Shown here in pieces: positions 4,829 through 39,421 of a stretch of DNA of 43,280 nt (its first letter is position 1; every line of letters begins with the position of its first letter). The DNA comes from a virus, in the IMG/VR virus record IMGVR_UViG_3300042544_003877, positions 1 through 43,280 of that record. One strand, written 5' to 3'. Under the pieces are notes generated by a model. That model ran no database searches and was not told the origin of the DNA. It worked only from the letters and a program-made list of their open reading frames with translations. The position numbers and the translations under genes were made by a program.

Positions 4829-6082
4829 TTAGCTATCATCTTCTTGATAATCCTCGTCATAGTGGCTCCAAGTTTCTTGAATTTCTTTTGTATAATTATC
4901 GTCTCCATTTGATATAACTCCGCTACGTTCATTAAAATAAATTAGAGAGTCCATATAAGGAAATCCCCAATCCCATTCTCTGAGTGTAACTGTATATGTT
5001 ACTCTACTTTTTATTTCTTCTCCTTTTACTACATCAAGATCACAATTACCATTATTTTCTCTTTTTGACCACCATCCTTGAGACTCAGCAAATTTCTTAA
5101 ACAATTCTTTTTGACTATCAACTACATAATAGATTTTATCCATAAAAGTATCACCTTCATTTGTTTTCCAAAGTAAAGCTCTTCCTTGTATCCTATTTGA
5201 CTTGTATTTGCCATTTAGAATGGTTCCGTTATCATCGTATAATATCACCATACTTACAACATCTGGGTTTTCGGTATAAATATAGTGACAATCGGTTGGC
5301 TTATCTATCATACAAGAATTACCAAGTGTTCCCTCCATAACTGTATTTTTACTTTTATACCAATAATGTATGTCATCTCCTTTTACAACATCAAATTTCA
5401 AAAAAGCATTATTCATTATATCAATTGATGATTTCCAATCATTTACAAACTTTTCTATATCTGATGATGAAAATGATTTACCGGTTATTTGTAGAAGTTT
5501 TCTTACTATTCTACCAACTCCTATTGTATTTCTGCTACTTTGTGTCCATAAAGTTTGATAGTCTGGACTTTTATGTGTTAAACCTTCTTTATTTATCACC
5601 ATCTTCTTTGTGGGTTCTGATAAAGTCTCTACATAACAGTATGTTCTTCCGGTTGATTCTGATATAATCTCTCTTATTAGTTTAACATCTGTTCTATTTT
5701 CCAACTTTACAACATCTGACATATCTACTCCAATAAGATCATAAATTTTCTTATTTTGGTCCATTGAGGAGTCTGATGAGAATGAATCAAATTTAAGAAC
5801 TTTTACATTATTTGTTATTAACCATATGTCTTTATATTGATCAAGTATCCTTTGTGCTCTATTATCTTGTAAGAATGTTACAGAATCGGGTTCATTTAGA
5901 TTTGCATCAAGATAATTTTGGGTAACATTCTTATCTTCACCTTGTAGTTTTAGTATCTCATCTGATATTGGAGATTTAATGGATTTTAGGACATTTATGA
6001 AATTTTTTGAAAATTCAATCTTACTCTCAAGAATGAGTTCATATAATTTTTTTTCTAAAATGTATTCTTCATATTTTAACAT
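4829..6082 (-). CDS. SCM/RALLW/MDRIY phage paralog family, copy 2, with capsid-targeting-like N-terminus
   Basis: This 417-residue family member begins MLKYEEYILEKKLYELILES, which resembles the shared T4-like capsid-targeting N-terminus. The family core follows: GVGRIVRKLL, SSSDIEKFVNDWKSS, FDVVKGDDIHYWY, NSCM, YIYTENPDVVSMVIL, GRALLWK, FMDKIYYVVDSQKELFKKFA, and PYMDSLIYF near the end. Between the N-terminal tag and the core lies an extra region (about 60-170) not obviously present in copy 1. The acidic tail ends HYDEDYQEDDS. It is followed by the 48-kb-wide pattern of packed minus-strand genes 6095-6916 and 6927-7895, forming a minus-strand block of three with 10-13 base gaps. No catalytic family is recognised. 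Virion packaging is an inference from the N-terminus. Confidence 0.8.
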   Translation of the reverse strand: MLKYEEYILEKKLYELILESKIEFSKNFINVLKSIKSPISDEILKLQGEDKNVTQNYLDANLNEPDSVTFLQDNRAQRILDQYKDIWLITNNVKVLKFDSFSSDSSMDQNKKIYDLIGVDMSDVVKLENRTDVKLIREIISESTGRTYCYVETLSEPTKKMVINKEGLTHKSPDYQTLWTQSSRNTIGVGRIVRKLLQITGKSFSSSDIEKFVNDWKSSIDIMNNAFLKFDVVKGDDIHYWYKSKNTVMEGTLGNSCMIDKPTDCHYIYTENPDVVSMVILYDDNGTILNGKYKSNRIQGRALLWKTNEGDTFMDKIYYVVDSQKELFKKFAESQGWWSKRENNGNCDLDVVKGEEIKSRVTYTVTLREWDWGFPYMDSLIYFNERSGVISNGDDNYTKEIQETWSHYDEDYQEDDS

Positions 6083-6094
6083 TATCTATATATT

Positions 6095-6916
6095 TTATTT
6101 TAAACTAGGTTTTTTCTCTTTTATTAAATTTTCAACACCATCTTCGCTTGAATCTATGATTTGATAAGGATTGATAATTGTTTCATGGTCTTTATCGGGA
6201 ATTTCAATATCTTTGGTTTTTAGAACATCTTTTAGTTTTGACATCAGCCAACTTATGCCTTGTTTTGAAATAAGTGCCGTTCCTGCGGCACCAACGGATA
6301 AAAGATTAGAAGCAATATTATCAAGTGTCATATCATATTTCCCTATAAATAACAACATAGCATTCATGCAAGGCATCATAATTGAAGTATAAGCGAACAT
6401 ATCAAACAATCCATCAATAATATAGGGAGTTCCTTTTAATATCATTTTAAAGAAGTTTTTTATTGAAATAAAAACATTTACGAATTTTTTTACAATTCCA
6501 TTTCCAATTCCTCTCATTTTAAGTTCTGATAACATTGTTTGGGCATCTCTTCTAGTGACTATACTTTTTTCACCATCACTATTTATTTCCTCTCCTGTAT
6601 TATTTTTTGTTTCCTCAAGATATGATATGGAAATTATTGTTATACAAAGAAGTATTATATTTTCTTCATTTAATTCGATGGATAGTTTTGAATTTTCTAT
6701 TAGATTTTTAACAATTGGTATCATAAATCCTATACCAGTTCCGAAAGTTCCAACTAATTTAATGTTAAATTTTATATCAGAACTTAATTTTCTTAGTATT
6801 TTTTGAATTAATTTATTATCCATTAAGTTCTCATTTATCATTGGATTTGAGATATTTTCTATAATTTCAAAAAATTGTTCTCTATTATCAAAGTCTTTGA
6901 ATTTTAATATTTTCAT
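6095..6916 (-). CDS. Membrane-associated protein with capsid-targeting-like N-terminus
   Basis: This 273-residue protein starts MKILKFKDFDNREQFFE, matching the shared N-terminal tag. It contains several hydrophobic stretches: a Gly-rich one near 53-72 (VGTFGTGIGFMIPIV), one near 86-99 (IILLCITIISISYL), one near 165-195 (including FDMFAYTSIMMPCMNAMLLF) and a Gly/Ala-rich one (LLSVGAAGTALI). A charged linker and hydrophilic tail separate and follow them. It lies between two SCM/MDRIY paralogs in the same orientation. If the tag is real, a membrane-active protein would be carried in the head, suggesting a role in genome delivery at the host membrane. That role is inference; the family is not recognised. 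Confidence 0.75.
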   Translation of the reverse strand: MKILKFKDFDNREQFFEIIENISNPMINENLMDNKLIQKILRKLSSDIKFNIKLVGTFGTGIGFMIPIVKNLIENSKLSIELNEENIILLCITIISISYLEETKNNTGEEINSDGEKSIVTRRDAQTMLSELKMRGIGNGIVKKFVNVFISIKNFFKMILKGTPYIIDGLFDMFAYTSIMMPCMNAMLLFIGKYDMTLDNIASNLLSVGAAGTALISKQGISWLMSKLKDVLKTKDIEIPDKDHETIINPYQIIDSSEDGVENLIKEKKPSLK

Positions 6917-6926
6917 AAACTATATA

Positions 6927-7895
6927 TTATTTTCTAAATTCCAATACTTCTCCTTTTGTACCAATGAGTTCATAATAATGTCCACTTTCTGGCTCATAAT
7001 TCATAAGTGTATTATTCTGCATAAAACAGAAAGTATCTAAATAGGGAACACCCCATTCTTTATGATCTTCAAAATTATATTTCAATGGTATCTCTATTTT
7101 TATCCATCCTTTTTCTTTACCATTGGTCATATTATAATATGATCCACTTCTATTCTCTGATTTCCACCACCATCCATTTTCTTTTGCATAATTCTGGAAT
7201 TTGAATAGAATCTCACCTTTTACTGCATATATTCTATCCATATAAAAAACATCTTCTTTTATTTCCCAGATAAGAGATCTGCCCCATAAGTACCCATTTT
7301 GGTCTTCTAAAATAAGTAACTTTACTGGACAAGAGTAATAAAAATCGATAAGTGTTAATTGATCATTCATACATGAATTTATCAATTCATTCGGTGAAGA
7401 ATTCTCAAATGAGTAGTTATTCGAATTATATCCATTTTTAATATCCGATCCTTCTAGAATTTTGAATTGGAGTTTCTTAAAATCAAATTGTGATTTATAT
7501 TGATTGACAAATTTTTCTATTTCTTTGTCACTGAATGTATCAAGTAATATTCTTTTTATGAATCTTCCAATTTTTATCTCGGATCTATTCTTATTGTAAA
7601 TTTGAGCATCTGGATCAGTTAATGGCCCAAAATATAAATTCCCAAATTTCTTACTTATCTCATTTTCAAAAAAAATATCATATATTTTTGAAGATTCCGT
7701 GAAAGTTATCATATCATTTCTTTCAGATACATTTATAAGAGACATATCAGAATCGATCATTTTAAGTTCCAATAAAGCATCTTTTATAGGAGAATCAATT
7801 TTATTCAACACTTGGTCGAATTTCTTCGACCATTGAAGCGGAACCTTTTTCGAAATTTTCTCAAGTAAAAACTCACTAAATTTTAATAATTTCAT
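6927..7895 (-). CDS. SCM/RALLW/MDRIY phage paralog family, copy 3, with capsid-targeting-like N-terminus
   Basis: The 322-residue protein begins MKLLKFSEFLLEKISKK, the clearest match in this family to the T4 internal-protein leader MKTYQEFIAEA. The core contains IKIGRFIKRILL, SDKEIEKFVNQYKSQF, FKILEGSDI, NSCMNDQ, FYYSCPVKLLILEDQNG, GRSLIWEI (RALLW variant) and FYMDRIY, followed by FKFQNYAKENGWWWKSENR and VPYLDTF. The box TTAATATATA sits 6 bases upstream of its ATG, on the minus strand. It is the promoter-proximal gene of a minus-strand block with 6095-6916 and 4829-6082. Biochemical role unknown. Confidence 0.8.
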   Translation of the reverse strand: MKLLKFSEFLLEKISKKVPLQWSKKFDQVLNKIDSPIKDALLELKMIDSDMSLINVSERNDMITFTESSKIYDIFFENEISKKFGNLYFGPLTDPDAQIYNKNRSEIKIGRFIKRILLDTFSDKEIEKFVNQYKSQFDFKKLQFKILEGSDIKNGYNSNNYSFENSSPNELINSCMNDQLTLIDFYYSCPVKLLILEDQNGYLWGRSLIWEIKEDVFYMDRIYAVKGEILFKFQNYAKENGWWWKSENRSGSYYNMTNGKEKGWIKIEIPLKYNFEDHKEWGVPYLDTFCFMQNNTLMNYEPESGHYYELIGTKGEVLEFRK

Positions 7896-7900
7896 AAAAT

Positions 7901-7910
7901 TATATATTAA
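7901..7910 (-). promoter_or_regulatory. TTAATATATA box before the 6927-7895 gene
   Basis: On the minus strand TTAATATATA ends 5 bases before the ATG at 7895. The same decamer occurs at similar positions before several other genes here. It is a candidate phage late -10 element (compare T4 TATAAATA). Confidence 0.55.
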
Positions 7911-7979
7911 AACCGAATTTCATATTACTTTCTAAACAAATATTAAAAAATGTGATATAAAAAATAAAAATATTTTTAT

Positions 7980-9176
7980 ATGGCGGTAAAGCTTATTCTA
8001 ACACAAATAATGAAAAATGAGACGCATGTGGCTCATAGAATGCTTAACTCAATTAAACCAATAGTCGATGGTATAGTTGTTATAGATACTGGATCAACAG
8101 ATGATTCAATAGAAAAAGTAATAAAATGGGGAGAAGATAATGGAATCGAAACTTATGTATTTCAAAGATCATTTGATAACTTTGAAAACTCAAGAAATGA
8201 ATCTTTTAAAAAAGCAAGAGAAATATTTCTATCCAAAAATGATGGACATACATATTATAACTTCTGGTTAGACTTTGATGAGCAAATTGAACTAGATTCT
8301 AAGTTCAATAAACAATCTTTAAATAAAGATTTATATATGTTTAATACTTATATAAATCAAATGAGATATACTCGAAATGAATTATGTCGTTTAGACAAAG
8401 AATTTAGATTCTATGGTGTTGTTCATGAATTTATAGTACCACCAAATGGTTCAGATGGCAATCCAGATAGAACAATAACATCTGGACTATTGGATGGATT
8501 AACGGTTAGAGTTAAAATGGATGGTGGAAGTTGGAACTCAAACATTCCAGCAAAATATCAAAGTCACGCTCATATTTTAGAGAAGTATATTGATTCCGAT
8601 AGGAGCGATCCTCGGTGGATTTTTTATACTGCACAAAGTTATCATGATTCAGCTTGTTTCCCAGATAATAAAGAAGAAAATGAAGAAAGACTTAGAAGGA
8701 GTTTAAAGTATTACAGGGAAAGAGTTTCTAGACCCGATGGATACCCTGAGGAGGTATTTTATTCACAATATCGTATTGGAACTATAATGAGAGCAATTGA
8801 AGATCCTTGGAATTTAACTTTAACTGAATTATTAAAATCATATACTATTGATCCACTAAGAGGAGAGCCTATAAAGGCCATAATCGACTACTATATTGCG
8901 GTTGGTGATTGGCACAATGCTTATTTATTCACATCATTTGCAAAGAAGGTATTTCACAACAATTCTCCTTATCCAAAAAGACTATTGTTTGTTGATGAGA
9001 CACTTTATATTTGGAAGTTTTTAGAGGCTCATAGTGCTACTTGCTTTTATACTCAGCGAATGGATGAAGCAAAGCAGACTTACTTAGAAATGTTAAAGAT
9101 ATCAAAGGAAAGGCCGGAATATTTTACACCAGAGGATCTTCAAAAAATAAATGCGAATTCTCAATTTTTCAAATGA
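7980..9176 (+). CDS. Family 2-like glycosyltransferase with helical (TPR-like) C-terminal part
   Basis: This 398-residue protein has a GT-A fold start: VKLILTQIMKNETHVAHRML followed by IVVIDTGSTDDSIEKV (about 35-50), the nucleotide-sugar binding segment of GT2 enzymes. The metal-binding D-x-D equivalent is WLDFDEQIELD (about 97-107). The second half (about 200-398) is rich in helices with repeated WIFYTAQSYHDS and VFYSQYRIGTI segments like the TPR-like extensions of GT2 proteins. It overlaps the next gene by 4 bases (ATGA), so the two are coupled. Possible roles are glucosylation of modified phage DNA, decoration of virion proteins or alteration of host surface sugars. The target cannot be read from sequence. 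Confidence 0.85.
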   Translation: MAVKLILTQIMKNETHVAHRMLNSIKPIVDGIVVIDTGSTDDSIEKVIKWGEDNGIETYVFQRSFDNFENSRNESFKKAREIFLSKNDGHTYYNFWLDFDEQIELDSKFNKQSLNKDLYMFNTYINQMRYTRNELCRLDKEFRFYGVVHEFIVPPNGSDGNPDRTITSGLLDGLTVRVKMDGGSWNSNIPAKYQSHAHILEKYIDSDRSDPRWIFYTAQSYHDSACFPDNKEENEERLRRSLKYYRERVSRPDGYPEEVFYSQYRIGTIMRAIEDPWNLTLTELLKSYTIDPLRGEPIKAIIDYYIAVGDWHNAYLFTSFAKKVFHNNSPYPKRLLFVDETLYIWKFLEAHSATCFYTQRMDEAKQTYLEMLKISKERPEYFTPEDLQKINANSQFFK

Positions 9177-9610
9177 ACTGGTTAAAAAAATATAGACTTG
9201 GACCTGAATATTTCAACTCTAGCGATGAGTTAAAAGAAATATTCAGGTTCATTCAAAATCATGATGTAGAAGAAAAACGTGTAAAAAGAGACGCAAAAAT
9301 ATCTCAAATTTTAAATGAGAGTTATATTGATTCTCTTGATTACTTAAATGATTTTATTGATATATTGCATGGTAAGATATTTAGATCCATGCAAATGTCA
9401 AATGAAATTATTACCTATATGGATACATTAACATCAACATTATCTCAAAAAAATATAATTGCTGAAACTTTATCAGTTAAAGACATAAATGATTTTAAAG
9501 GTATTATTGATGACAATTTTAATAAAGGGAAAAAAATAATTCCTTATAAAATAGTAATTGATGTGAATAATCAAACAATTCTATTTAGAGGAGCAATGAT
9601 ATATTTATGA
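9173..9610 (+). CDS. Unknown protein translationally coupled to the glycosyltransferase
   Basis: A 145-residue, mainly helical protein (MNWLKKYRLGPEYFNSSDEL...). Its ATG overlaps the stop of the preceding glycosyltransferase (ATGA), implying co-expression. The charged N-terminal half contains a KRVKRDAK segment. The C-terminus (KIVIDVNNQTILFRGAMIYL) looks like a small beta-hairpin. No known motif is recognised. Coupling suggests a partner or accessory of the transferase, which is inference only. Confidence 0.7.
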   Translation: MNWLKKYRLGPEYFNSSDELKEIFRFIQNHDVEEKRVKRDAKISQILNESYIDSLDYLNDFIDILHGKIFRSMQMSNEIITYMDTLTSTLSQKNIIAETLSVKDINDFKGIIDDNFNKGKKIIPYKIVIDVNNQTILFRGAMIYL

Positions 9611-9647
9611 AATTAAACGATATTACTAAAATATCAATTCTTTAATT

Positions 9648-10628: not shown

Positions 10629-10636
10629 GTTCTGTG

Positions 10637-10930
10637 TTATTTTTTATCTGTAAGTAGTTTTTCTATAGCAGCCTCTCGTATTTTAATTTTTGGGATAAAG
10701 AAATATTTAGATTCTCGCATATTAAAAAGAAACTTGTTCAGAGAAAATGATTTATTAGATTCTTCTAATACTTTTTTCTTATTAAGATATTCTTTATATA
10801 GAATTTTTTTCCTATTTTCATTGAGACATTCAAACCAATATGAGTGCTTTCCAGACTCAATTTTTCTTGAAAATCTTAAAAATTGATTATCATTCTTTGA
10901 TTGGATGTTTGGTACTGATTTATTTTCCAT
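10637..10930 (-). CDS. Small basic unknown protein, first gene of the prs operon
   Basis: I choose the ATG at 10930 (MENKSVPNIQSKNDNQFLRF, 97 residues). A start at 10945 is possible, but it would overlap the promoter-like TATATTTG box. The protein is Lys/Asn-rich and helical, with no recognised domain. It precedes prs by 8 bases in the same orientation, so co-transcription is likely and a link to nucleotide metabolism is conceivable. Confidence 0.65.
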   Translation of the reverse strand: MENKSVPNIQSKNDNQFLRFSRKIESGKHSYWFECLNENRKKILYKEYLNKKKVLEESNKSFSLNKFLFNMRESKYFFIPKIKIREAAIEKLLTDKK

Positions 10931-10934
10931 ATTA

Positions 10935-11684: not shown

Positions 11685-12335
11685 ATGAAATTATTCCGTT
11701 ATAAAAATTTTATTAAAGAATCCAAAGAGGATATCGACTCCATATGTAAAAAATTTGGTATAAAGAATTATACTATTAACGAAGACTCAACTATTGATGT
11801 TGATGGAAATGTTAATTTATATAGAAAAGGATTAACTAAACTTCCCTTAAAATTTGGAAAGGTAAGTGGTGATTTTTCTTGTTATAATAATCAATTAATA
11901 AGTTTAGAAGGTTCTCCCCTTTCAGTTGGTGGTAATTTTTCTTGTGGTTATAATCAATTAAAGAGTTTATCAGGCGCTCCCCTTTCAGTTGGTGGTGATT
12001 TTTCTTGTTATAGTAATGAATTAAAGAGTTTAGATGGAATTTCTGGAAGGATTTCCGGTGGAATTTATTGTTATAGTAATCAATTAAGAGATGTCAAAGG
12101 AGTTAAAGATGGTTGGTTAGGAGAATTTAGTGTATATCGAAATCCAGTTCATGAAATATTTAAATTATTTCCTTATGAAAAATGGGATGAAGTTATTGAA
12201 ATCTTAAATGAGTATGAAGTGATCCGTGATAATGGTAATTTAATTATTTTACAAAGACTTGAACAAGTTTTTCTGGATCTAGGTTTAGAAGTTCCAGAAA
12301 TTGAAGAAATTAAAGGATATAAAATTCGGTTTTAA
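11685..12335 (+). CDS. Leucine-rich-like repeat protein with capsid-targeting-like N-terminus
   Basis: This 216-residue protein begins MKLFRYKNFIKESKEDI, matching the shared N-terminal tag. Residues about 62-142 hold three to four copies of a 20-22-residue repeat of the form G-D-F-S-C-Y-x-N-x-L-x-S-L-x-G-x-P-L-S-V-G. Its strand-turn spacing resembles the LRR-like solenoid repeats common in large phage genomes. The repeats are also visible in the DNA (63-bp unit). A helical, acidic C-terminal domain follows (LFPYEKWDEVIEILNEY...). Regular solenoids usually bind proteins. The gene is framed by 37-bp direct repeats, suggesting cassette-like duplication or exchange. Function unknown. Confidence 0.8.
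   Translation: MKLFRYKNFIKESKEDIDSICKKFGIKNYTINEDSTIDVDGNVNLYRKGLTKLPLKFGKVSGDFSCYNNQLISLEGSPLSVGGNFSCGYNQLKSLSGAPLSVGGDFSCYSNELKSLDGISGRISGGIYCYSNQLRDVKGVKDGWLGEFSVYRNPVHEIFKLFPYEKWDEVIEILNEYEVIRDNGNLIILQRLEQVFLDLGLEVPEIEEIKGYKIRF
11868..12110 (+). repeat. Intragenic 63-bp tandem repeats encoding the solenoid
   Basis: Units of 63 bp, marked by GGTGATTTTTCTTG and CTCCCCTTTCAGTTGGTGG, repeat in frame about three times before diverging. This is evidence of recent unit duplication within the gene. Confidence 0.8.
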
Positions 12336-12367: not shown

Positions 12368-12766
12368 ATGAGAAATTTAAAAAGATTTGAAAATTACATA
12401 AAAGAGAATTTAGAACTTGAAACAAAAGATGATGAGATAAACCCAGAAGGTTTAGTATCCGATAACTCTTTTGAAGAAGACGATCAGGTTCCAGAAGAAG
12501 AAGAATATGACTATGTTGGAAATAAACTTATGAACGATCTAGCAAAAAAACTAGGAACAAAAGTAGCCAATAATGAGATAAACTATAACGGCGAAAAAAT
12601 AAACTTTTACTCAGAAACAGAGAAATTTCATATTGGTAAAAGAAAATTCGATACACTTGAAGATGTTTTAAAATATCTAAAGACTGAAGTTGAGCCAGAA
12701 TTAGAGGAAATGCCAATGGAAAGTTTAAGATATAGAAGAACTATGAGAAATAAAAGAACTAAATAA
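12368..12766 (+). CDS. Acidic unknown protein with capsid-targeting-like N-terminus
   Basis: The 132-residue protein starts MRNLKRFENYIKENLELE, fitting the shared tag (basic, F-x-x-[FY]-I-x-E). A very acidic segment follows (about 20-56, including QVPEEEEYDY), then a small alpha/beta domain (NKLMNDLAKKLG ... FHIGKRKFDTLEDVLKYLK). The tail is basic (YRRTMRNKRTK). Tag plus acidic linker plus compact domain resembles T4 internal-head or core proteins in layout only. It shares the promoter box inside the right repeat at 12309-12345. Confidence 0.7.
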   Translation: MRNLKRFENYIKENLELETKDDEINPEGLVSDNSFEEDDQVPEEEEYDYVGNKLMNDLAKKLGTKVANNEINYNGEKINFYSETEKFHIGKRKFDTLEDVLKYLKTEVEPELEEMPMESLRYRRTMRNKRTK

Positions 12767-14856: not shown

Positions 14857-16632
14857 TTAAGTTGTTCTTTCCAAATAATGTTTCAACATTTTAGGATCTT
14901 TTATTATATGAGTGACTAAGCTTCGGGTAACCGTCCACATTTTAGTACAAAATTTTGAACCAAACGCACTTTCTTTAACATGTTCTTTGAGGTTGTCGTA
15001 TAAATTATTTTTAGTTATAGAAAGTCTTATCGATGTTAGACCATCCCTTTTAATTTTTTCTGATTCTAATATTAAGATTTTAATCAAATCATAAAAATCT
15101 GATAAAGGATATCCCATGTAGTATAAATCATATTTAGACAATATAATTCTATTTTTATCAATATCAATTCTAAGATTCAAAATATATTCTTCAAAATCTT
15201 TTTCACTTACTTCTTCAATTTTTTCATTTTTTATTAAATCAATATATTCATCTCTAAATATATTCTCTCCTTTCCAATTTATTATTTTTTCTGATGGAAC
15301 TTTATAGGATTCGCCCTCTATTTCAATATTAATAAGAGTTTTTTCAAAATCTTTATGTATGTAATCATCATCTAACCTCCTATTTATTACTATTGAGATC
15401 GCATCATCAAATAAGATATCACTACCTAATATATTTGAATGTACAACGTCTTGGGAATAATAATTATCTCCGTTATATTTTGAATATGATATCTCATCAT
15501 TTGGATGTGCCCATTCATCAACATATTCTAAGTAAGTGGCATCACTACGATAGACCCATTCTTCTCTTCTCTCACAAAAAGCAGCATCCTCTCTCAATAT
15601 CCAATCACCATTATATTCTGACCATACCACATCTGCTCTCGTATATGAACCTAAGGTTGAATCCAATTTTATATATCCTTCTCCTGGCCAAAGATCCTCA
15701 TTAGCTGATAGTATTTTTTCATCTACATTCAAACAAATAAAAGTATCTAAATATGGATAATAATCAAATTTAGCTTCTTCTAATTTGACTTCAAGATTTC
15801 TTAATTTTAAATAATTAATTTCTGATTTAGTTAGTATTCCATTTTTTTCACCAAATTCTTCAAATAATATCATATCAGAATCTTTGTTAGTGTATATCCT
15901 ATCCATGAAAGTTTCACCAGTTTTTAATTTCCAAATTAAAGCTCGTCCAGTTATACGCGAACCATCCTCACTTTTTAAAATAAGTAATGAAACAACTTCT
16001 GGATTTTCAACATATATACCGAAATAATTTTGACATGAGAGATTCCTCATACAAGAAGATCCTAACTGACCAGACTGAGTTTCATAATTATCCTTTAAAT
16101 ACCATTTTTTAATTTCCTCTCCTTTAACAATTTCAAACATTGAAAATTTACTATTGAATTTATCATAAGTTGATTTATAAAGGTTAACGAATTTTTCAAG
16201 ATCAGAAGAACTTATTGATGATTTGGATTTTTCATAAACTCTATTTACAAATCTACCCACAAAAACTTCTGTTCTCTGATCTACCCAGACTTTCTTTTTA
16301 ATATCTATTCCAGATTCTTGATCATACCACATTCTTTGAGACCAATCTTTAAAACCCATACCAGGATTTTCTTCACCCTTATCCCAGAATCTCTTAACTC
16401 TATTCATAGAAATAAAAGAAAGTTTATCATTTGTTTTTGTAATATCTATGTAATTCGCATCATCTTCGTGATCCTCACTTAAATGTTTTTTTAAAAGAAA
16501 TTCAGCAACCTCATATCCTTCTTTTTTAGAACTAATAATATCTTTAAGTACCTTTCTCAATTCAAATGAGAAGTAAAGTGGAATTTTATCCTCAATATTT
16601 TCAAATAAATATTCTATATAACTTAATATCAT
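14857..16632 (-). CDS. SCM/RALLW/MDRIY phage paralog family, copy 4, with repeat extension
   Basis: The start is taken at ATG 16632 (MILSYIEYLFENIEDKIPLY, 591 residues), one codon inside a TTG. The N-terminus resembles the capsid-targeting tag. The family core is present: VFVGRFVNRVYE, SSSDLEKFVNLYKSTYD, FEIVKGEEIKKWYL, SSCMRNL, GIYVENPEVVSLLILKSEDG, GRALIWKL, FMDRIYTNKDSDMILFEEF, YYPYLDTF. It is about twice the length of the other copies. After the core come four to five tandem units of about 15-16 residues (VVWSEYNGDWILREDA, AFCERREEWVYRSDA, TYLEYVDEWAHPNDE, ISYSKYNGDNYYSQDV). A helical C-terminal domain of about 170 residues follows. The repeats look like a beta-rich binding stalk. Family function unknown. 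Confidence 0.82.
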   Translation of the reverse strand: MILSYIEYLFENIEDKIPLYFSFELRKVLKDIISSKKEGYEVAEFLLKKHLSEDHEDDANYIDITKTNDKLSFISMNRVKRFWDKGEENPGMGFKDWSQRMWYDQESGIDIKKKVWVDQRTEVFVGRFVNRVYEKSKSSISSSDLEKFVNLYKSTYDKFNSKFSMFEIVKGEEIKKWYLKDNYETQSGQLGSSCMRNLSCQNYFGIYVENPEVVSLLILKSEDGSRITGRALIWKLKTGETFMDRIYTNKDSDMILFEEFGEKNGILTKSEINYLKLRNLEVKLEEAKFDYYPYLDTFICLNVDEKILSANEDLWPGEGYIKLDSTLGSYTRADVVWSEYNGDWILREDAAFCERREEWVYRSDATYLEYVDEWAHPNDEISYSKYNGDNYYSQDVVHSNILGSDILFDDAISIVINRRLDDDYIHKDFEKTLINIEIEGESYKVPSEKIINWKGENIFRDEYIDLIKNEKIEEVSEKDFEEYILNLRIDIDKNRIILSKYDLYYMGYPLSDFYDLIKILILESEKIKRDGLTSIRLSITKNNLYDNLKEHVKESAFGSKFCTKMWTVTRSLVTHIIKDPKMLKHYLERTT

Positions 16633-17509: not shown

Positions 17510-18025
17510 TCATTGGAAATCTTCAAATCCCTTTACGTTGGAATGAAAACCTGGATCTTCTTCATGCAATTCTTCTTCCTCAGAATGTGAGTTTAACCAA
17601 TCGTGAACGTGTTCTATTGACTCTTTAGCTGCAGATATGTGATCAGCTGCCCAATCATGTCCTTCTGTTAACATTTGATCAATCTCTTCTTTATCCATTT
17701 CTAAAATATCAGTGACCATGCTACATATATTTTCTAGATTTGCAAAAAACATATAATTATCAGTTTCTGAATGAGATTCTTTTAAACCTTTCAATGTTTT
17801 TGCAAGATTCAATTTTTTGAATTTTTTAAGATCAGATTTAGATAATCCTTGAACACCTTTCTTATCAGGATCCTTATCTTTTTTCTTTAAATCAGATAAC
17901 TCTGACTCAATTTCCGATTTTGAAATTTTCTCACCTTCTTTTTTCTTCATCGATTTTCTCAGTGAACCAGGAGATTTTTCTTCTTTTTTCTCTGTTAGAG
18001 AATCAAACTTTCTTAAGTGTTTCAT
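17510..18025 (-). CDS. Charged helical protein with capsid-targeting-like N-terminus
   Basis: This 171-residue protein begins MKHLRKFDSLTEKKEEKSPG, a shared-tag variant. It is Lys/Glu-rich up to about residue 85 (KSMKKKEGEKISKSEIESEL, KSDLKKFKKLNLAKTL). A helical domain follows (YMFFANLENICSMVTDILEM, HDWAADHISAAKESIEHVHDW). The His/Glu-rich C-terminus ends VKGFEDFQ, echoing IKGFEDFS in the acidic protein at 19110-19505. Its start overlaps the end of the HAD-like gene by 4 bases. Neighbours and composition suggest a prohead-core or internal-head protein, which is inference. Confidence 0.7.
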   Translation of the reverse strand: MKHLRKFDSLTEKKEEKSPGSLRKSMKKKEGEKISKSEIESELSDLKKKDKDPDKKGVQGLSKSDLKKFKKLNLAKTLKGLKESHSETDNYMFFANLENICSMVTDILEMDKEEIDQMLTEGHDWAADHISAAKESIEHVHDWLNSHSEEEELHEEDPGFHSNVKGFEDFQ

Positions 18026-19110
18026 TTTTTAATTTTTTTTTTTAATCTTTTAGGTCTGATATATTCCTTTGACATTTTTGCCAATTGCTTAGTTCCTAAT
18101 TCAGAAGATTTATCATATTCATTCGGATCAGTAAACATTCTGTCTTTCATGTTGTTGAATTGTGAGAATGCCATAACAGAAGATGCCATTCCTGGAGCAA
18201 TAGATGATCCAGAAGATTCCATCATCGAAAACTTGGTTCTTTCACCTCCTTTTAATTCTCTATCTGTTGTCTTATATAAATTCAATTTTACTTTATGTGG
18301 CATAAGTTCATTCTGAAGTGCAGAGTGTTCTTTGAAATAAGTTCTTACATGCTCAACATTTTTTGGATCATCATCAGAGAATCCAACTGAAACAGATTTA
18401 GCACCTACTTTCTTTCCAAAATTATTACATTTATCTATGAATTTTTCTAATGCCATTTCTTTTGCCTTCTCTGGATTTGAAGCACTTGATTGTCCAAATT
18501 CAGATGAAAAACTATCAGAGGATACTCCATAATAATCACAGGAATCCAAATAAAGTTTGATAAGAGGATTAATAGATAACTGACCTCTTGGTATTCTTTC
18601 AAACTCTTCTTGACTTCCAAAAATATAAGAGAATTTAAGACAATTTGAATAAAGAAGAAATCTTTCCTCTTCAGTTAAAACATTATCAATTATGTATTCA
18701 ATAGCTTTCCTAATTGTATTTGGTTCATGACCACGTGCCGTTATAATAGAGAATACTGCACCTTCTGATAGACACTTAATAAAAGCGTCCCAAGAAGGCC
18801 CAAATAGACCCTCATTGAGAGCTTTCTTAACATCCAATAAGAAAGCAGATTCTCCTCTTGGTCCAGAATCTCTGAACTCAGAAAATGCAAAAGAAGAATC
18901 ATCACTCCTTAATCTATAATTTTCTTTGTCATTTCTGACCTTTGCAAAATCGGATGTTGAAACATCAACTGGAATCCAATTTGAACCTTCTTTTATATCC
19001 ATATGTATAACTGTTGGCATGTGTAATATATTATCATCCCAATCAAAACTGTAGAAATGAAGTTCTAATGAATTAGATTCAAAAATAAATTCTGAAAATT
19101 TTTTTATCAT
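18022..19110 (-). CDS. HAD-superfamily-like protein with capsid-targeting-like N-terminus
   Basis: The 362-residue protein begins MIKKFSEFIFESNSLEL, a near-perfect match to the shared tag. HAD motif I is YSFDWDDNILHMPT (nucleophile and acid Asp about 23/25). Motif II is FSIITARGHEPNTI, and motif III/IV is SVGFSDDDPKNVEHV with acidic metal ligands. The cap region is large, and a Ser/Met-rich tail (SMMESSGSSIAPGMASSVMA) ends basic (RPKRLKKKIKK). HAD enzymes are phosphatases or phosphotransferases; here all key Asp positions appear intact. A phosphatase carried in the head could act in assembly or after injection (inference). It overlaps both neighbours by 1-4 bases. Confidence 0.82.
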   Translation of the reverse strand: MIKKFSEFIFESNSLELHFYSFDWDDNILHMPTVIHMDIKEGSNWIPVDVSTSDFAKVRNDKENYRLRSDDSSFAFSEFRDSGPRGESAFLLDVKKALNEGLFGPSWDAFIKCLSEGAVFSIITARGHEPNTIRKAIEYIIDNVLTEEERFLLYSNCLKFSYIFGSQEEFERIPRGQLSINPLIKLYLDSCDYYGVSSDSFSSEFGQSSASNPEKAKEMALEKFIDKCNNFGKKVGAKSVSVGFSDDDPKNVEHVRTYFKEHSALQNELMPHKVKLNLYKTTDRELKGGERTKFSMMESSGSSIAPGMASSVMAFSQFNNMKDRMFTDPNEYDKSSELGTKQLAKMSKEYIRPKRLKKKIKK

Positions 19111-25046: not shown

Positions 25047-25124
25047 ATGTCCTTTGATTTCTTCGATCTCTGGAAATTGCCATCACGCATCACTTCATAT
25101 ATTTCACCGAAGGTTAATATTTAA
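25047..25124 (+). CDS. Possible 25-aa peptide after the helicase
   Basis: ATG at 25047 opens MSFDFFDLWKLPSRITSYIS and continues to TAA at 25124, overlapping the end of the convergent gene by 4 bases. It has an amphipathic, aromatic start but no known relatives that I can name. In T4 a small gene (uvsW.1) follows uvsW; similarity is only positional. Low confidence. Confidence 0.25.
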   Translation: MSFDFFDLWKLPSRITSYISPKVNI

Positions 25125-29264: not shown

Positions 29265-29281
29265 TTAATATATAAGATATG
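29265..29281 (+). promoter_or_regulatory. TTAATATATA box and AATATATAAGATATG start module
   Basis: The 15-mer AATATATAAGATATG (29267-29281, including the start codon) is identical at 35003-35017 and 39903-39917, each ending in the ATG of a gene. It is a conserved -10-like box fixed 4 bases from the start codon, implying nearly leaderless mRNA. Confidence 0.65.
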
Positions 29282-30673
29282 TTTATAAGAAACTGGAAAA
29301 TGTTCAAAGAGAATTTGAACGAAAATATCTATAATTCAAAAAATCTTATCACTGAAATATGTGTAAGTATGATTTTGATCAATAATGAATTCTTAGATAA
29401 TATATTAGATCGTGGATTAAAATCAAGGTATAGTGAAGATTCTTCTGTTTTTTTAAATGATCTGAAGAATTTAGTAAATTCAAAGAATAGACTAAAGTTG
29501 GGAAAATGGGACGGTGAGAAATTCACATCTGATGATGATTTAGGAAAAATAAACGGAGTTTTTGGATCAATAGGATTTGATATCGAAAAAGATTGGAATG
29601 TTTTGGTGAATTCTAGAATAACTGCAAGAAATATAATTGATAAGCTATTATCAGATCAAAAATTAACAGAAGATTTGATATCATCTGTTTATTGGTTAGG
29701 TCCAAATAAAAACGAGGACTTTGATGAAGATATTGTTATTGAAACAAAAGATGGAAAACAATTTTCTATTTTTTTGAATAAAAATCTTTCTCTTCAAAAA
29801 ACCTCATCATTCAACACATTCGCAGATGATCTTATTCCAAATGGAATAGAAAGAATTTATGATGAAGAGAATATTAAAAAATGGGATAAACTAACTCAAG
29901 AATTTGTAAGAATAACTTACGAATGTGCAAATAAATCAATTCAATCCGAAATAGAAAAATTTATTGACACAAATAGAATAGAATCAATAACGTTTTTCAA
30001 CTACTTTGATATAAAACACCGCGATCCAAGGTTTAAAGTATTGGGTGAGTATATAAAACCATTTGAAAAAAATATTCTGAAATTCTCAGATCTATTGAAT
30101 GAGATATGGAAGAAAAAAGAAATACATCTTTCATCATTAGAAAGGGCAGAAAAAGAATGGACAGAATCAAAAATAGTTATACTTAATTCAAGAATACTTG
30201 AGAATATCTTAACAACTTCATTAAAGACTGATAATCCAGATGATATAGTAAAATTAGAGGATGGATTTAAAAAAGCTTCTGGTACAGTTAAGATGAAATT
30301 AATAAAAACTTTTGTAGATAAATTAGGATGTACTGAAAGAGAAGTCTTTTATCTTTCTAAAAATGGAAATAACTTTTATCAAATACCAAGTAGAGGATTC
30401 TTCAGGGAAAATTATGAAAATTTAGATGTACACTTCGATTATCATCAAAGATTTAAAATTAAAGAAGATGATGAAGATGAGGATATAAATAATTTTAATT
30501 TCAAAATAAAAGTCATACATGAAGAGAAAGAACTTATCTCTTTTGATATTGTGGTTTTATTTAAAGGAGAATTCTCAAATAAACTTTCTGCTAAATACAA
30601 ATTCAACATACCTGAGAATTTCAATTTTCAATTGAATAAAATTAAATCAGAGGAAGAGACAGATTTTCAATAA
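29279..30673 (+). CDS. Unknown protein, tag-like N-terminus, possible PD-(D/E)XK-like motif
   Basis: The 464-residue protein begins MFIRNWKMFKENLNENI, a variant of the shared tag. It contains YWLGPNKNEDFDEDIVIETK and GKQFSIFLNKNLSL (about 140-172). The D-I-x-I-x-x-x-D-G-x-x-x-S-I-x-L-x-K spacing resembles the core of PD-(D/E)XK nucleases, with Asn where the catalytic Lys is expected. The rest is helical, with an acidic stretch (KEDDEDEDINNF). It lies among tail genes, 7 bases before 30681. Virion-associated protein likely; nuclease activity is speculative. Confidence 0.65.
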   Translation: MFIRNWKMFKENLNENIYNSKNLITEICVSMILINNEFLDNILDRGLKSRYSEDSSVFLNDLKNLVNSKNRLKLGKWDGEKFTSDDDLGKINGVFGSIGFDIEKDWNVLVNSRITARNIIDKLLSDQKLTEDLISSVYWLGPNKNEDFDEDIVIETKDGKQFSIFLNKNLSLQKTSSFNTFADDLIPNGIERIYDEENIKKWDKLTQEFVRITYECANKSIQSEIEKFIDTNRIESITFFNYFDIKHRDPRFKVLGEYIKPFEKNILKFSDLLNEIWKKKEIHLSSLERAEKEWTESKIVILNSRILENILTTSLKTDNPDDIVKLEDGFKKASGTVKMKLIKTFVDKLGCTEREVFYLSKNGNNFYQIPSRGFFRENYENLDVHFDYHQRFKIKEDDEDEDINNFNFKIKVIHEEKELISFDIVVLFKGEFSNKLSAKYKFNIPENFNFQLNKIKSEEETDFQ

Positions 30674-34742: not shown

Positions 34743-34776
34743 TTTTACAATATATAAAAAAAACATATTTTGTAAA

Positions 34777-35004
34777 ATGAAAGAAATAGATAAATATCAA
34801 GAACTTCTTAACTTAATAACAGAGGAAGTAACACTTACAATAAACGGAAAAGAAAAAAAATATCTTTTAAAAGAAGAATTTGAAGCATTCTTCATAAAAA
34901 AGAATAAAAGCGCTGGTCCTAGAATAAGAAAGATAATGCAGCTGATCAAATCCACATCATCAGATATAAGAGAAAATGTGCAAAATTTCAAATCTGATAT
35001 ATAA
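34777..35004 (+). CDS. Small basic helical protein
   Basis: The 75-residue protein MKEIDKYQELLNLITEEVTL ends in a conserved-looking basic helix (SAGPRIRKIMQLIKSTSSDI). It resembles small DNA-binding or internal proteins by composition only. It is closely followed by 35015. A real gene by position; function unknown. Confidence 0.65.
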   Translation: MKEIDKYQELLNLITEEVTLTINGKEKKYLLKEEFEAFFIKKNKSAGPRIRKIMQLIKSTSSDIRENVQNFKSDI

Positions 35005-35017
35005 TATATAAGATATG
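35003..35017 (+). promoter_or_regulatory. AATATATAAGATATG start module
   Basis: Identical 15-mer to those at 29267-29281 and 39903-39917, ending in the ATG of the 35015 gene. It overlaps the stop of the preceding gene. Confidence 0.6.
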
Positions 35018-35560
35018 AAAAAGTTCTCAAAGATAACAGGCGAAAAAGTAAATGAGCAAATCCCAGTAGAAGTCAAAACTACTGATGTTGATCTTATGAA
35101 ATCAGGAGTGATGAATCTTTTAGATTCATATATTGGGGTGAGAATGTATGGTCCAGTAACTAGACATGAAAGAGCAGGTTCTGTTAAAATAATAGGAAAA
35201 GAAGTATTCGTAGAAGCACTTATGGATTTCTTAGAAGATTTCACATCAAAGGATAAAGTAAAATTACTTGAAAATCTTAAATCAGAATCAAAAGATTGGC
35301 AACTTATTGATGCAAAAATCGATCAGATAAAATCATCACAAGAAGAAATATCTGAATCAAAATTAATTGCACATAAAGAAAAAATATCATCAATGATTAA
35401 AAGATATCCTTCTAAAGAATCACTCAATGATTATATCGATTCAACAATTATGAAGATTGATGAAGAAACAAAAGTACTTAGAAGTATTGCAGCAAAAAGA
35501 ATGAATAATTCAAATAATGAATTACTCAACTTAATAGAGGAAAAGTACAGATCTATTTAA
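35015..35560 (+). CDS. Helical unknown protein, probably structural
   Basis: The 181-residue protein begins MKKFSKITGEKVNEQIPVEV; only the first five residues recall the shared tag. A short ordered segment (VMNLLDSYIGVRMYGPVTRH) precedes long helices (FVEALMDFLEDFTSKDKVKL, KLIAHKEKISSMIKRYPSKE). It starts under the AATATATAAGATATG module also found before the 29279 and 39915 genes of the tail region. No family recognised. Confidence 0.65.
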   Translation: MKKFSKITGEKVNEQIPVEVKTTDVDLMKSGVMNLLDSYIGVRMYGPVTRHERAGSVKIIGKEVFVEALMDFLEDFTSKDKVKLLENLKSESKDWQLIDAKIDQIKSSQEEISESKLIAHKEKISSMIKRYPSKESLNDYIDSTIMKIDEETKVLRSIAAKRMNNSNNELLNLIEEKYRSI

Positions 35561-36164
35561 TAGTACAATTTCTAAAATCACTCATTATTGAATTTCTAAA
35601 TTCACGGAATTCAGAATAAAGTTCTTCCCAAGTCCAATCTTTCTTTGAGTTTATTTTATTCCAAATATCATTTGCACAAGAAAAATCATATATTTCGCCG
35701 GTTTTTGCAATTTGTTGACCAAAAAGTGGAATTCTAAGTGAATGAAAAATCGATTTCACTCCTATGTGATATTCATTTTGATACAATTTCTTTTTGCACT
35801 TTACCCAAGAATTCGAAGAAGTATGTGAGAAATTATGTCTAAGTCTTGGAATAATAAGATCAAATTTAAAATCGATGGTATCTAATATTTTAAACTCATC
35901 TGGTGCAAAGTAACATTCTAAAGCACCTGGATGATGTTCATTCAGAAGATTTTGAAATTGCACAGGAGTTTGAATGTGAATATTAAAATCTCCACTTTTT
36001 ATTTCCTGATTAGTATTTGGAGTATTTGCAATAACTCTAAAATCCCAATCAGAACTATTATCATAGGTTCCATACACTCTTGATCCAAATACGAAAATCG
36101 ATTTAACACGAGTTGGATGAAGTTTAGATCTTTTTATAACTTCATCAGCAGTTGGTATCTTCAT
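35553..36164 (-). CDS. Nucleotidyltransferase (Pol beta-like/MNT fold)
   Basis: The 203-residue protein has the catalytic core IFVFGSRVYGTYDNSSDWDF (about 23-42), G-S-x(n)-D-x-D, with both metal-binding Asp residues present. The C-terminal half is helical and ends in RNCTIK. Related phage enzymes transfer nucleotides to RNA, protein or small molecules. The substrate is unknown; no toxin-antitoxin partner is adjacent, so the MNT antitoxin type is unlikely. It is transcribed alone under a TATATTTG box at 36178-36185, suggesting early expression. Confidence 0.85.
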   Translation of the reverse strand: MKIPTADEVIKRSKLHPTRVKSIFVFGSRVYGTYDNSSDWDFRVIANTPNTNQEIKSGDFNIHIQTPVQFQNLLNEHHPGALECYFAPDEFKILDTIDFKFDLIIPRLRHNFSHTSSNSWVKCKKKLYQNEYHIGVKSIFHSLRIPLFGQQIAKTGEIYDFSCANDIWNKINSKKDWTWEELYSEFREFRNSIMSDFRNCTIK

Positions 36165-36177
36165 TTTAAAATTTTTA

Positions 36178-36185
36178 CAAATATA
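36178..36185 (-). promoter_or_regulatory. Bacteroidota-type -7 box TATATTTG
   Basis: On the minus strand TATATTTG ends 13 bases before the ATG at 36164. This is the third such octamer at the start of a metabolic-type gene here. Confidence 0.55.
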
Positions 36186-36194
36186 GTAAAAAAA

Positions 36195-37649
36195 TTATTT
36201 TTTTATCTCTCCTGTTGGACTCATTTTAGTTACTTTTTCTGTTGGAATAACTTTGTAGTCTAATTCGGGATCAGTAGAACTATACTCTGATGGTTCAGAC
36301 CAAACCAATTTTAAATTGAATGGTACTCCCGAAAGATCATTTATTATCTTATTCTTGAACATATCAATGAATCTAATTCCTTCATAAGGAGGAACTTTAC
36401 ATGCTGAGATGATATTACTAACTGAACCAATTCCACCATGTCCTCCAGCGACTGTTATCTCATCTTGTCCGATTGATGTATTTGCATCATAATATCCTAG
36501 ATGTTTCTGAAAGTTGGTCAAAAGATTTTTCATATATTCACCAAGATCAGTTACTTCTTCTCCTGATTTCAATTTAGGAAGATTCTCAGTTTCACTTATC
36601 TTTTTATAAGCACAAACCTGTAAGGTAGATCCATACTGAAGTAAAATGAATTTAGGTTCAACTGGAATTTTACCATCAATAAAATCTTTCTCAACAATAA
36701 CTCTTGCTCTAAGAGCATTTGCCCAAACACCAGTTGGAATAAAAACAAGATCTCCTATGATCTGATATCCATCAGGGGATATTCCAATTCCTTTCTTCCA
36801 ATCTGAGACAAACTCTGATTGTGATGTATATACTTTTTTCTCTTTTGAGAATTTTCCTCTTGTTCTTGCTTGCATCTCACCCATTCTCCATAGAGAATCC
36901 GCCATGAATTCTTTTTTCTGTCCTTTTTTAAATCCACTTTTTATAACATTGTGATGTGGATAAACCGCTTTCATAACATTGAATATTGAATATATTGAAG
37001 CATCATTGCAATTATGAATAACAGAAACTAAAGTCTCTGTATCACCTCTTTTTATGAATTGGTTAAAAGCAGCTGCAAACTCAAGTCTTTTTTTATCTGA
37101 TTTTTTTATTTCGGATAAATCAAAATCTAAAAGTCTTTGCCAAGAAACTCCATAATCAGAATATTTTGCCGCATCTACCATATCAATCACTGATACCGTT
37201 AATTCATCCTGAGGTATTCCTAATGTCTGACAAAGAGCTTCATAAGCAGAAGCAGTTTGCTTTTTCTGAACCGGAGACCTCTTATACTTTTCCATTTCTT
37301 CTGGCGAGAATGATCCATGATGATCTAAATAAAAATCAATATGTTGATCTCTTTCATCTCCTGGCATGCTTGCAAAATCTAAAACAACATTTATTAATTT
37401 TGGATCTATTGAAGTGTATTTCCAACCATCGGTATAGTTAATCATTCCATATTTTACTATCTCAAACCCTTTGTTTAAAAGCCAACTTTTAGCTGCAATG
37501 GCACAGAATAATCCATCTAAGTCATCGTGTGTATAGAGAGCCACCTTCTTGCCGATCTTTCCTTTTTTCAACCAATATTCCTCTCTAACAGGAAGTCTCG
37601 GAGATGATTCTTCTTTTATTATATTAAATTCTTGCCATTTCTTAATCAT
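36195..37649 (-). CDS. DHH-family phosphoesterase with capsid-targeting-like N-terminus
   Basis: The 484-residue protein begins MIKKWQEFNIIKEESSPRLP, a shared-tag variant. DHH-family motifs: YTHDDLDGLFCA (about 39-50, metal ligands), LNVVLDFA region, FYLDHHGSF (about 107-114, D-H-H) and VIDMVDAAKYSD. The C-terminal DHHA1-like domain contains TVAGGHGGIGSVSNII, the substrate-binding Gly-His-Gly motif. The family includes RecJ nucleases, oligonucleases and cyclic-dinucleotide phosphodiesterases. Without a RecJ OB domain and at this length, a nano-RNase or cyclic-nucleotide role (which could counter nucleotide-based host defence) is possible but unproven. The tag suggests the enzyme could enter the head. 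Confidence 0.87.
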   Translation of the reverse strand: MIKKWQEFNIIKEESSPRLPVREEYWLKKGKIGKKVALYTHDDLDGLFCAIAAKSWLLNKGFEIVKYGMINYTDGWKYTSIDPKLINVVLDFASMPGDERDQHIDFYLDHHGSFSPEEMEKYKRSPVQKKQTASAYEALCQTLGIPQDELTVSVIDMVDAAKYSDYGVSWQRLLDFDLSEIKKSDKKRLEFAAAFNQFIKRGDTETLVSVIHNCNDASIYSIFNVMKAVYPHHNVIKSGFKKGQKKEFMADSLWRMGEMQARTRGKFSKEKKVYTSQSEFVSDWKKGIGISPDGYQIIGDLVFIPTGVWANALRARVIVEKDFIDGKIPVEPKFILLQYGSTLQVCAYKKISETENLPKLKSGEEVTDLGEYMKNLLTNFQKHLGYYDANTSIGQDEITVAGGHGGIGSVSNIISACKVPPYEGIRFIDMFKNKIINDLSGVPFNLKLVWSEPSEYSSTDPELDYKVIPTEKVTKMSPTGEIKK

Positions 37650-37664
37650 AGATTTTGATTATTT

Positions 37665-38036
37665 TTAAATGTATATATAAAATAAAAAACTTTTACTTTT
37701 TATTGAAATATCAATCAAACATCCACGTTTTTCTAAAATATCAATAACCCCATCAAAAAGATCTTGGTGTTTTTCTTTTATTGATTGCATTCTTAATATC
37801 TGAACTCCTGATAATGAGAAATCAACCTCTGGTGTAACTTCCACAAGAACAACCTCATTCACATCAAAATGTAAATCATCTCCAATGAGAACAGGATCAT
37901 TCACTCTTTTTATTGGTGATGTTTTAACTTCAAATGTTAGTTTTGGTATATCATAAAAGTAACTTTTAAATATCTCATCAATCTCTTTCTCAGTGAATGG
38001 TAGATCAAAATCTTCAAATAATTTTATTCTTTTCAT
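37665..38036 (-). CDS. Small unknown protein with capsid-targeting-like N-terminus
   Basis: The 123-residue protein begins MKRIKLFEDFDLPFTEKEID, matching the tag up to the acid residues. A mixed alpha/beta body follows (ISIKSKSFLFYIYI at the end). Its start overlaps the end of the 38033 gene by 4 bases. No family recognised. Confidence 0.65.
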   Translation of the reverse strand: MKRIKLFEDFDLPFTEKEIDEIFKSYFYDIPKLTFEVKTSPIKRVNDPVLIGDDLHFDVNEVVLVEVTPEVDFSLSGVQILRMQSIKEKHQDLFDGVIDILEKRGCLIDISIKSKSFLFYIYI

Positions 38037-39421
38037 TTTTTAAAATCTTTTATATCAATTATTCCCTTTTTATCACCTTTATCGCCCTCTGAATCAAATT
38101 TAGTATCGAAGAAACCATCATAAACATCTACGATTTTTGTCTCAGGTGAGATTGTAGCATAGGGACCAAGTTCTCCACTTCTAAAAATACCTTTTTCCAT
38201 ATGAGAATTCAAGAACCCATTCATAAAGAAACAATCATATAGATTGCTACGTTCTACCCTACAAGAAAGAACTTTAGAATTTTTTAATTCAGAATCATCA
38301 ATCTTAGATTTAGATACTTCCGCATTATTTATTTCACATGCCATAAATTGGCAATCTTCAAATATTCCTTCGAGTACAACACAATTTATAAATTCAAAGT
38401 TTTTAAGAGTCAGTGAGGATTTTATTTGAGCATCAACAATTTCCATAGTTTGTGTTGATGTTACAAAATTCACTATACAGTCCTTTAAATCCTCAGTTGA
38501 TTCTATTAAATCATGTAGTTTAGTATAAAGTCTTGTAAAATAAGAATTTATTAGATCATAATTGAAATTTTGATCTATCTGAAGTTGTATAGAAGGAAAC
38601 TGAACAATAAAATTATCATACTTTGAGAAACTACGCCATTTATCTATATTCTCTTCAAGGTATTCTTGAAGAATATCTGCATCAGATTGTGTGAAATTCG
38701 CATCTAGTGATCCCCATAGGTCCAATATGAATCTATCGAGAAAATAAGTTATATTACCTATATTCATCTCATAATCTTTTCCGCCAATATATCTATATTC
38801 TATTCTTTGTGATGACTTCTCATTATTCATATTTAAGAAGTTTATGCCAAAATATTTATCATTAGAAATCCTAAGTGAATTAGCAACAGATTGTATAGGT
38901 ATATTAAAGAAATCATATTGTTTATAAGGAACTATCTTCTTAACAGATTTCGCATATATATTTCCTTTTCTTGAGGGAAAATATCTATAAATTTCATCTT
39001 CATTTGTGTTTAAAATCAATTTAAGTATGTTTAGATCTCTTAGATCATTTTCATCGCCAGAAAAAGATATATTAAAGTGTATAGAACATTTCTCATTCGT
39101 GTATCCATAGTTCTGTATGAACTTTAATATTTTTATCATATAATATTTTGCATCATTATATTCCATTGGTCCAGTAATCAACTCAACCATGCTTGAACCA
39201 CCTGATAAATCAGGTTCAATTTTAAAATTCTTTGCATCTGGTTTGAAATTTGAATGATATGTTCTAAATCCATGTACTTTTACAGGAGATAGTTCTTTGT
39301 TCATCAACTCAAGTGTTTTATAAAAAGAAAGATCCTTCATATAGAATTCAAATTCTAATCCAACTTTTGCTAGTTTTAACTTAGAATATTCGTGTATGAA
39401 TTTTTCTGAATATTTTTTCAT
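38033..39421 (-). CDS. Amidoligase-like (ATP-grasp/GS-fold) protein fused to pentapeptide-like repeats
   Basis: In this 462-residue protein the N-terminal domain has VGLEFEFYMKD (about 19-29, G-x-E-x-E), IEPDLSGGSSMVELITGPME (about 67-86) and CSIHFNISF (about 113-121). This ordering of acidic, E-x-x-S/T-P-like and H motifs matches putative amidoligases of the glutamine-synthetase superfamily, which form peptide-like amide bonds. The C-terminal third (about 340-440) is a solenoid of ELKNSKVLSCRVERSNLYDC type pentapeptide-like repeats. The start MKKYSEKFIHEYSK recalls the shared tag. The acceptor is unknown. It is first gene of a two-gene minus-strand operon. Confidence 0.72.
   Translation of the reverse strand: MKKYSEKFIHEYSKLKLAKVGLEFEFYMKDLSFYKTLELMNKELSPVKVHGFRTYHSNFKPDAKNFKIEPDLSGGSSMVELITGPMEYNDAKYYMIKILKFIQNYGYTNEKCSIHFNISFSGDENDLRDLNILKLILNTNEDEIYRYFPSRKGNIYAKSVKKIVPYKQYDFFNIPIQSVANSLRISNDKYFGINFLNMNNEKSSQRIEYRYIGGKDYEMNIGNITYFLDRFILDLWGSLDANFTQSDADILQEYLEENIDKWRSFSKYDNFIVQFPSIQLQIDQNFNYDLINSYFTRLYTKLHDLIESTEDLKDCIVNFVTSTQTMEIVDAQIKSSLTLKNFEFINCVVLEGIFEDCQFMACEINNAEVSKSKIDDSELKNSKVLSCRVERSNLYDCFFMNGFLNSHMEKGIFRSGELGPYATISPETKIVDVYDGFFDTKFDSEGDKGDKKGIIDIKDFKK

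Follow-up and report, generated by a model that had tools for sequence, protein, structure and literature searches.

A tag at the start of unrelated proteins

The DNA analysed here, which we call the window, is the whole 43,280-base stretch of IMG/VR virus record IMGVR_UViG_3300042544_003877, a linear virus fragment with a GC content of 28.8%. Dispersed along it are genes for unrelated proteins that open with the same short N-terminal tag, its core [FYW]-x-x-[FY]-[IL]-x-E lying 2-8 residues downstream of the initiating Met (Table 1). We argue below that this N-terminus is very probably a prohead-targeting propeptide, working like the capsid-targeting sequence (CTS) of bacteriophage T4, in a huge-phage lineage related to the Mahaphages. 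A first-pass annotation of the window had listed eleven such N-termini, and all eleven are where it placed them. Seven are strong, scoring 10-22 bits (genes 4829, 6927, 11685, 12368, 14857, 18022 and 29279), three are weak and backed by homologues, and one, at 37665, has no homologue to back it.

Table 1. Tags and related features in the window, with the fused head genes of its relatives
Feature	Gene	Position	Strand	Bits	Remarks
MDRIY-family protein, fourth paralogue, untagged		617..1561	+	0.9	30% identical to the protein of 6927-7895
MLKYEEYILE, MDRIY-family protein	4829-6082	6053..6082	-	16.3	AATATATA just upstream; second possible site, LILES, after the tag
MKILKFKDFDNRE, tag-like, predicted membrane protein	6095-6916	6878..6916	-	5.2	AATATATA upstream; homologue W02_685640 has MKKYNEYLLEE, 19.9 bits
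MKLLKFSEFLLE, MDRIY-family protein	6927-7895	7860..7895	-	17.1	AATATATA upstream
MKLFRYKNFIKE, LRR-like repeat protein	11685-12335	11685..11720	+	13.2	AATATATA upstream; G005 paralogues have MKYLKLFENF
MRNLKRFENYIKE, acidic protein	12368-12766	12368..12406	+	21.2	W01 and G002 homologues tagged MIKKYNQFV
MILSYIEYLFE, MDRIY-family protein	14857-16632	16600..16632	-	14.2	AATATATA upstream; mechanical start is TTG, with the correct ATG one codon downstream
MKHLRKFDSLTE, tag-like, Lys/Glu-rich protein	17510-18025	17990..18025	-		weak by itself, with homologue G002_52187 reaching 10.1 bits
MIKKFSEFIFE, DWDDN-motif protein	18022-19110	19078..19110	-	21.7	
MFIRNWKMFKE	29279-30673	29279..29311	+	10.1	AATATATA upstream; orthologue begins MKLVKSYNLFLEA
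MIKKWQEFNIIKE, variant tag, DHH-type phosphoesterase	36195-37649	37611..37649	-	5.9	orthologues of 62-71% identity retain the variant [FWY]xx[FW]..I[KN]E
MKRIKLFEDF, possible tag	37665-38036	38007..38036	-	3.6	no homologue; uncertain
Protease and repeat scaffold, single frame	W01	198546-200669	+		
Protease and repeat scaffold, single frame	W02	73913-76336	+		
Protease and repeat scaffold, single frame	G002	109274-111370	+		

Close homologues (DnaK at 74% identity, the DHH-type protein at 62-71%), not a tree, would place the window phage in the 634-735 kb Mahaphage clade, a lineage for which the predicted hosts are Bacteroidetes (PMC7162821). Two complete relatives are W01 (LR745206.1; 634,780 bases, 919 genes) and W02 (LR756501.1; 735,411 bases, 1000 genes). 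With the tags aligned on their core, an initial profile built from seven window tags was applied to W01, where at 10 bits or more it matched 17 of 919 N-termini and one of 3025 internal Met. A later profile, refined by iteration over the window, W01 and G002, was run on W02, G001 and G005, all outside its training. At 8 bits or more it matched 66 of 1000 N-termini in W02 against 10 of 3808 internal Met (p=2e-35, this and the other p-values being indicative, since gene calls are mechanical and homologues are common to the genomes); in G001 the counts were 18/217 and 5/876, and in G005 21/248 and 2/772. For the window itself a held-out profile was trained on W02, G001 and G005 alone and, with a threshold of 6 bits, it picked out 9 of 45 gene starts and none of 225 internal Met; shuffling gave a mean of 0.53 such matches and a maximum of 3. 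By profile, 53 of the 919 W01 genes are tagged. The motif is thus neither equally common at internal positions, enrichment at N-termini being present in every tag-bearing genome tested, nor equally common in unrelated ones: none of 659 genes reached 6 bits in four control phages in which no gp21 family could be detected (crAss001 and Cellulophaga phi38:1, with phage G and phiKZ each sampled over 200 kb). Across IMG/VR the pattern M-I-K-K-[FY]-x-Q-F-I is encoded by 33 stretches, a control pattern with Q and F swapped by three.

A few matches were set aside as chance. ClpP (20552) and a MazG-like protein (10977) score in the window, the motif being absent from their orthologues; nor is it kept by orthologues of the HNH (12818) and primase-type matches. 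At 38033, MKKYSxxF[IL] is conserved, yet the orthologues lack the Glu and the gene is not counted. A sequence resembling the tag core, K[GK]FEDF, also occurs internally or terminally in several proteins (at the C terminus of window 17510- and in 19110-; in G002, 120710- and 75298+).

Over six sequences, the tagged set amounts to 182 proteins in 137 families, a few of them (ClpP, for one) there by chance, and an alignment of 97 family representatives retains only KK...FI.E. The tag behaves as a module. The T4-type RNA ligase Rnl1 is tagged in W01, G001 and G005, whereas its W02 homologue and T4 RnlA begin at the domain; an alpha/beta hydrolase carries the tag in W02 and is bare in relatives. 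Pfam domain matches of Rnl1, CCA, NUDIX and 2H proteins begin downstream of the tag, and the structural model for the 18022- product gives residues 1-12 a predicted local distance difference test score (pLDDT) below 50, the confident fold beginning immediately after. Near relatives of this protein keep the tag. Distant ones differ, most having [LI]xE before the domain, with N-terminal ends such as MKRRLLYE|ITMRAYSFDWDDN and VLNE|TKLR. A second tag form in huge phages reads MK[HY]LKK[FY]NE.

Key positions, late-promoter-like boxes and head genes

The likeness to T4 extends to individual residues. In the T4 internal protein IPIII, which begins MKTYQEFIAE, mutants have shown that targeting depends on residues 4 and 7 and processing on residues 8 and 10, and the gp21 protease cleaves after L/I-X-E (PMC9026906). 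The information peaks of our profile (aromatic, aromatic, I/L, E) coincide with those four positions; in the huge-phage tag the flanking Lys and the Ile/Leu upstream of the core are informative too. When the 255 genes of T4, on which the profile was not trained, were ranked by it, IPIII (9.7 bits) and IPII (8.3 bits) both came in the top five. The best T4 match was gp61.1 (AF158101 18966-19130), which starts MKTFKEFIKED; from its N-terminus this hypothetical protein may be an unnoticed internal protein.

Many genes have a box, AATATATA, beginning 12-13 nt before the ATG and resembling the T4 late promoter, TATAAATA. In the window it lies before 4829-, 6095-, 6927-, 11685+, 14857-, 25121-, 27155-, 29279+, 38033-, 39489+ and 39915+ (signs give the strand), and it is present in all relatives. 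Among tagged genes it occurs 48 times where 17 would be expected (Mantel-Haenszel odds ratio 4.5, p=1e-16), which suggests their late expression. With the box so near the ATG, late mRNAs would be nearly leaderless. The window's tail and baseplate genes at 25121, 27155 and 39915 have the box and lack the tag, so the tag is more than a late-gene mark. Other window genes (for example 16670+, 10637- and 35553-) have TATATTTG-like boxes, which resemble Bacteroidetes promoters.

The head genes themselves come from the relatives. In W01, W02, G002, LR756502 and LR756504 a sub-threshold Peptidase_S77 match (17-25 bits) opens a frame of 700-810 residues, which directly precedes the major capsid gene, recognised by Gp23 above its cut-off in W01, W02 and G002. 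The protease carries GE..HP and SSR motifs that also occur in distant T4-like phages, where it scores 83-89 bits; gene order beside gp23 and these conserved motifs support calling it gp21-type. The remainder of the frame resembles a scaffold, with 10-11 tandem 14-residue repeats (for example YSEYIAENLDKNIA) in all five relatives, and the core of the repeat, YSEYIAEN, is the seven-residue core of the tag. Internal tag cores number nine in the W01 scaffold, six in that of W02 and four in that of G002, against at most two in any other protein, and [LIV]xE reaches a density of 4.1-5.9 per 100 residues there compared with 1.6-1.8 elsewhere. T4 gp23 is cleaved at FLTE|AEIGG. Aligned with it by eye, the capsid protein of the relatives has a candidate site, SINE|NAYA, with the I-x-E present and the aromatic pair absent. 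The pair in tags and scaffold repeats is therefore not explained by cleavage alone.

Packaging, candidate cargo and rival explanations

From these observations we can sketch how the tag would work. Synthesised late in infection, tagged proteins would bind through their two aromatic residues to a head scaffold with about ten tandem cores, and the shell would form around them. Scaffold, capsid protein and tags would then all be cleaved by a gp21-type protease just behind the Glu of [IL]-x-E, leaving mature cargo in the head with the DNA, alongside which it may enter the next host. Packaging of the tagged proteins in the head is a well-supported prediction from sequence; injection is what we infer by analogy with T4. 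A more ambitious proposal, on which we are nearly evenly divided and lean slightly towards doubt, is that the tag copies the 14-residue repeat core of the scaffold, so that cargo enters by mimicking the scaffold and is released by a cut at the same site. Lineages could then have tags of their own, and in the largest phages the tag would serve as an open packaging code, with more than 100 families recruited to it, among them enzymes of RNA repair and nucleotide signalling that arrive ready-made.

What might the cargo be? PHROGs and Pfam gave almost no matches to the window's tagged proteins. The wider set has at least a dozen recognisable enzymes, and its families include Rnl1, a poly(A)-polymerase head/CCA-type nucleotidyltransferase, methyltransferases, radical SAM, DeoC, GH108, a 2H phosphoesterase with an RNase T domain (a weak Acb1 match), a SMODS-associated NUDIX protein, NUDIX and NFACT-R. 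The largest tagged family, MDRIY, has 33 members, four of them in the window; the three paralogues reported as tagged at first reading do carry the tag, and the fourth copy, at 617-1561, does not. The family's model is poor (pLDDT 48), with top PDB matches that are nearly all GNAT (lowest E-value 5e-3, TM-scores of about 0.4 at most), making a GNAT-like fold a lead at best. No MDRIY relatives were found in IMG/VR with a search alignment that was too diverse. The HAD-like label given to the 18022-19110 product keeps its invariant DWDDN motif and is left with no significant PDB fold match and no Pfam match, and the DHH phosphoesterase label for 36195-37649 rests on sequence reading. G005 has a big family of LRR-like repeat proteins, many members of which are tagged MKYLKLFENFNKSE, like window 11685+. 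Quite distinct from the tag is DPYGEE[x]W, which occurs 100 times in 86 of the 1000 predicted proteins of W02, often C-terminally and in 79 DNA spellings (sites include 11314-, 44452+ and 154863); it is absent from the other five sequences, which have 1,584 proteins between them.

The rival that survives best, one we consider unlikely, has the tagged proteins enter the prohead solely to build up a very large core, neither injected nor effectors. Some tagged genes do adjoin the capsid gene (W01 202508 and 204294), and several tagged proteins are small and acidic or of low complexity (12368, 17510), as core proteins are. Filler of this kind sits poorly with a dozen or more tagged enzymes (Rnl1, nucleotidyltransferase, 2H, NUDIX, methyltransferase, radical SAM, DeoC), and T4 proteins with a CTS are injected, IPI and IPIII acting against the host's first-response defences (PMC9391042). 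Because T4 internal proteins behave in this way, a load of RNA-repair and counter-defence proteins is reasonable, and the injected effector arsenal that the first-pass annotation had envisaged is a fair hypothesis, given tagged proteins such as the RNA ligase, CCA-type nucleotidyltransferase, 2H phosphoesterase, NUDIX and possible GNAT enzymes.

Much less probable is a destination outside the head, be it the membrane, a compartment like the phage nucleus, or a chaperone. A short amphipathic N-terminus of Lys and aromatic residues could suit any of these, and the model has a small helix, but such a destination leaves unexplained the scaffold cores, the four T4 CTS positions and the recovery of T4 internal proteins. 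An effect at the nucleotide level, whereby near-leaderless late mRNAs would require certain codons after the ATG, draws on the late-promoter-like box close to the start of many genes. It has already been largely refuted, and we give it very little credence: tags use the codons for F, Y and E as the genome does on average, which places the constraint on the protein, Trp substitutes for Phe or Tyr, the spacing from Met varies over 2-8 residues, and late tail genes do without the motif. Common ancestry of the tagged proteins as distant paralogues accounts for some members (the MDRIY and LRR-like families) and, across the full set, is refuted by the many families with unrelated domains.

Several points weigh against the tag as a prohead-targeting propeptide. 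Some tagged families have untagged orthologues. The Peptidase_S77 scores of the relatives fall under the Pfam cut-off (27 bits). A gp23 search of the window came back empty, as the fragment is without head genes, and the protease and scaffold are known from relatives. The genome tests are partly dependent through shared homologues, and the window was, with W01 and G002, among the sequences used to iterate the final profile.

The tag among known head-targeting systems

Not every T4-like phage shares this tag. Two distant ones with clear gp21 genes, G009 and G012, were rejected as members and have shared N-termini of their own; in both, [LI]xE is enriched at residues 5-20 (p=2e-9 and p=1e-8, respectively), which it is not in phages lacking gp21. 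We read this as pointing to targeting signals that are lineage-specific among T4-like phages.

For the largest phages, most of whose genes lack an assigned function, a tag readable from sequence predicts virion proteins among some 1000. It turns 50-70 uncharacterised genes per genome into candidates for takeover and counter-defence in the first minutes of infection (the RNA ligase, nucleotidyltransferase, Acb1-related 2H and NUDIX proteins among them), and the scaffold repeats suggest a testable target for the 'affinity' of the T4 CTS, namely the core itself. We found no CTS described for Mahaphages or jumbo phages in a literature search that had most subscription journals outside its reach. 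The working principle is already known from T4. As far as the searched literature goes, what is new is the scale in the Mahaphage-like lineage, the enzyme cargo, the fusion of protease to scaffold and the scaffold's tandem tag cores; the match between tag and scaffold repeat appears to be undescribed.

How, then, does the system compare with those already known? The analogy with the T4 CTS, first drawn from the N-termini, is now strongly supported by the same key positions, the head module, the scaffold cores, the late-promoter-like boxes and the T4 internal proteins recovered. As with IPI, IPII and IPIII (MKTYQEFIAE|A), some 10-13 N-terminal residues recur on unrelated proteins, and the lineage that bears them has a gp21-type protease and a gp23-type capsid protein. 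The differences are just as telling. T4 has a handful of CTS proteins, whereas the huge phages have some 50-70 per genome, large recognisable enzymes included; T4 genes 21 and 22 are separate, whereas the relatives' protease and scaffold are fused in one frame; and T4 gp22 lacks the aromatic core that the huge-phage scaffold repeats in tandem. Giants of the phiKZ type (SPN3US, 201phi2-1) offer another parallel: many of their head proteins are cleaved behind a Glu by a protease related to gp21 and are ejected into the host (PMC5694885, PMC9026906). Their propeptides, unlike the tag, are mostly long, with S/A-x-E in phiKZ and no short shared sequence, and phiKZ gave no profile matches here.

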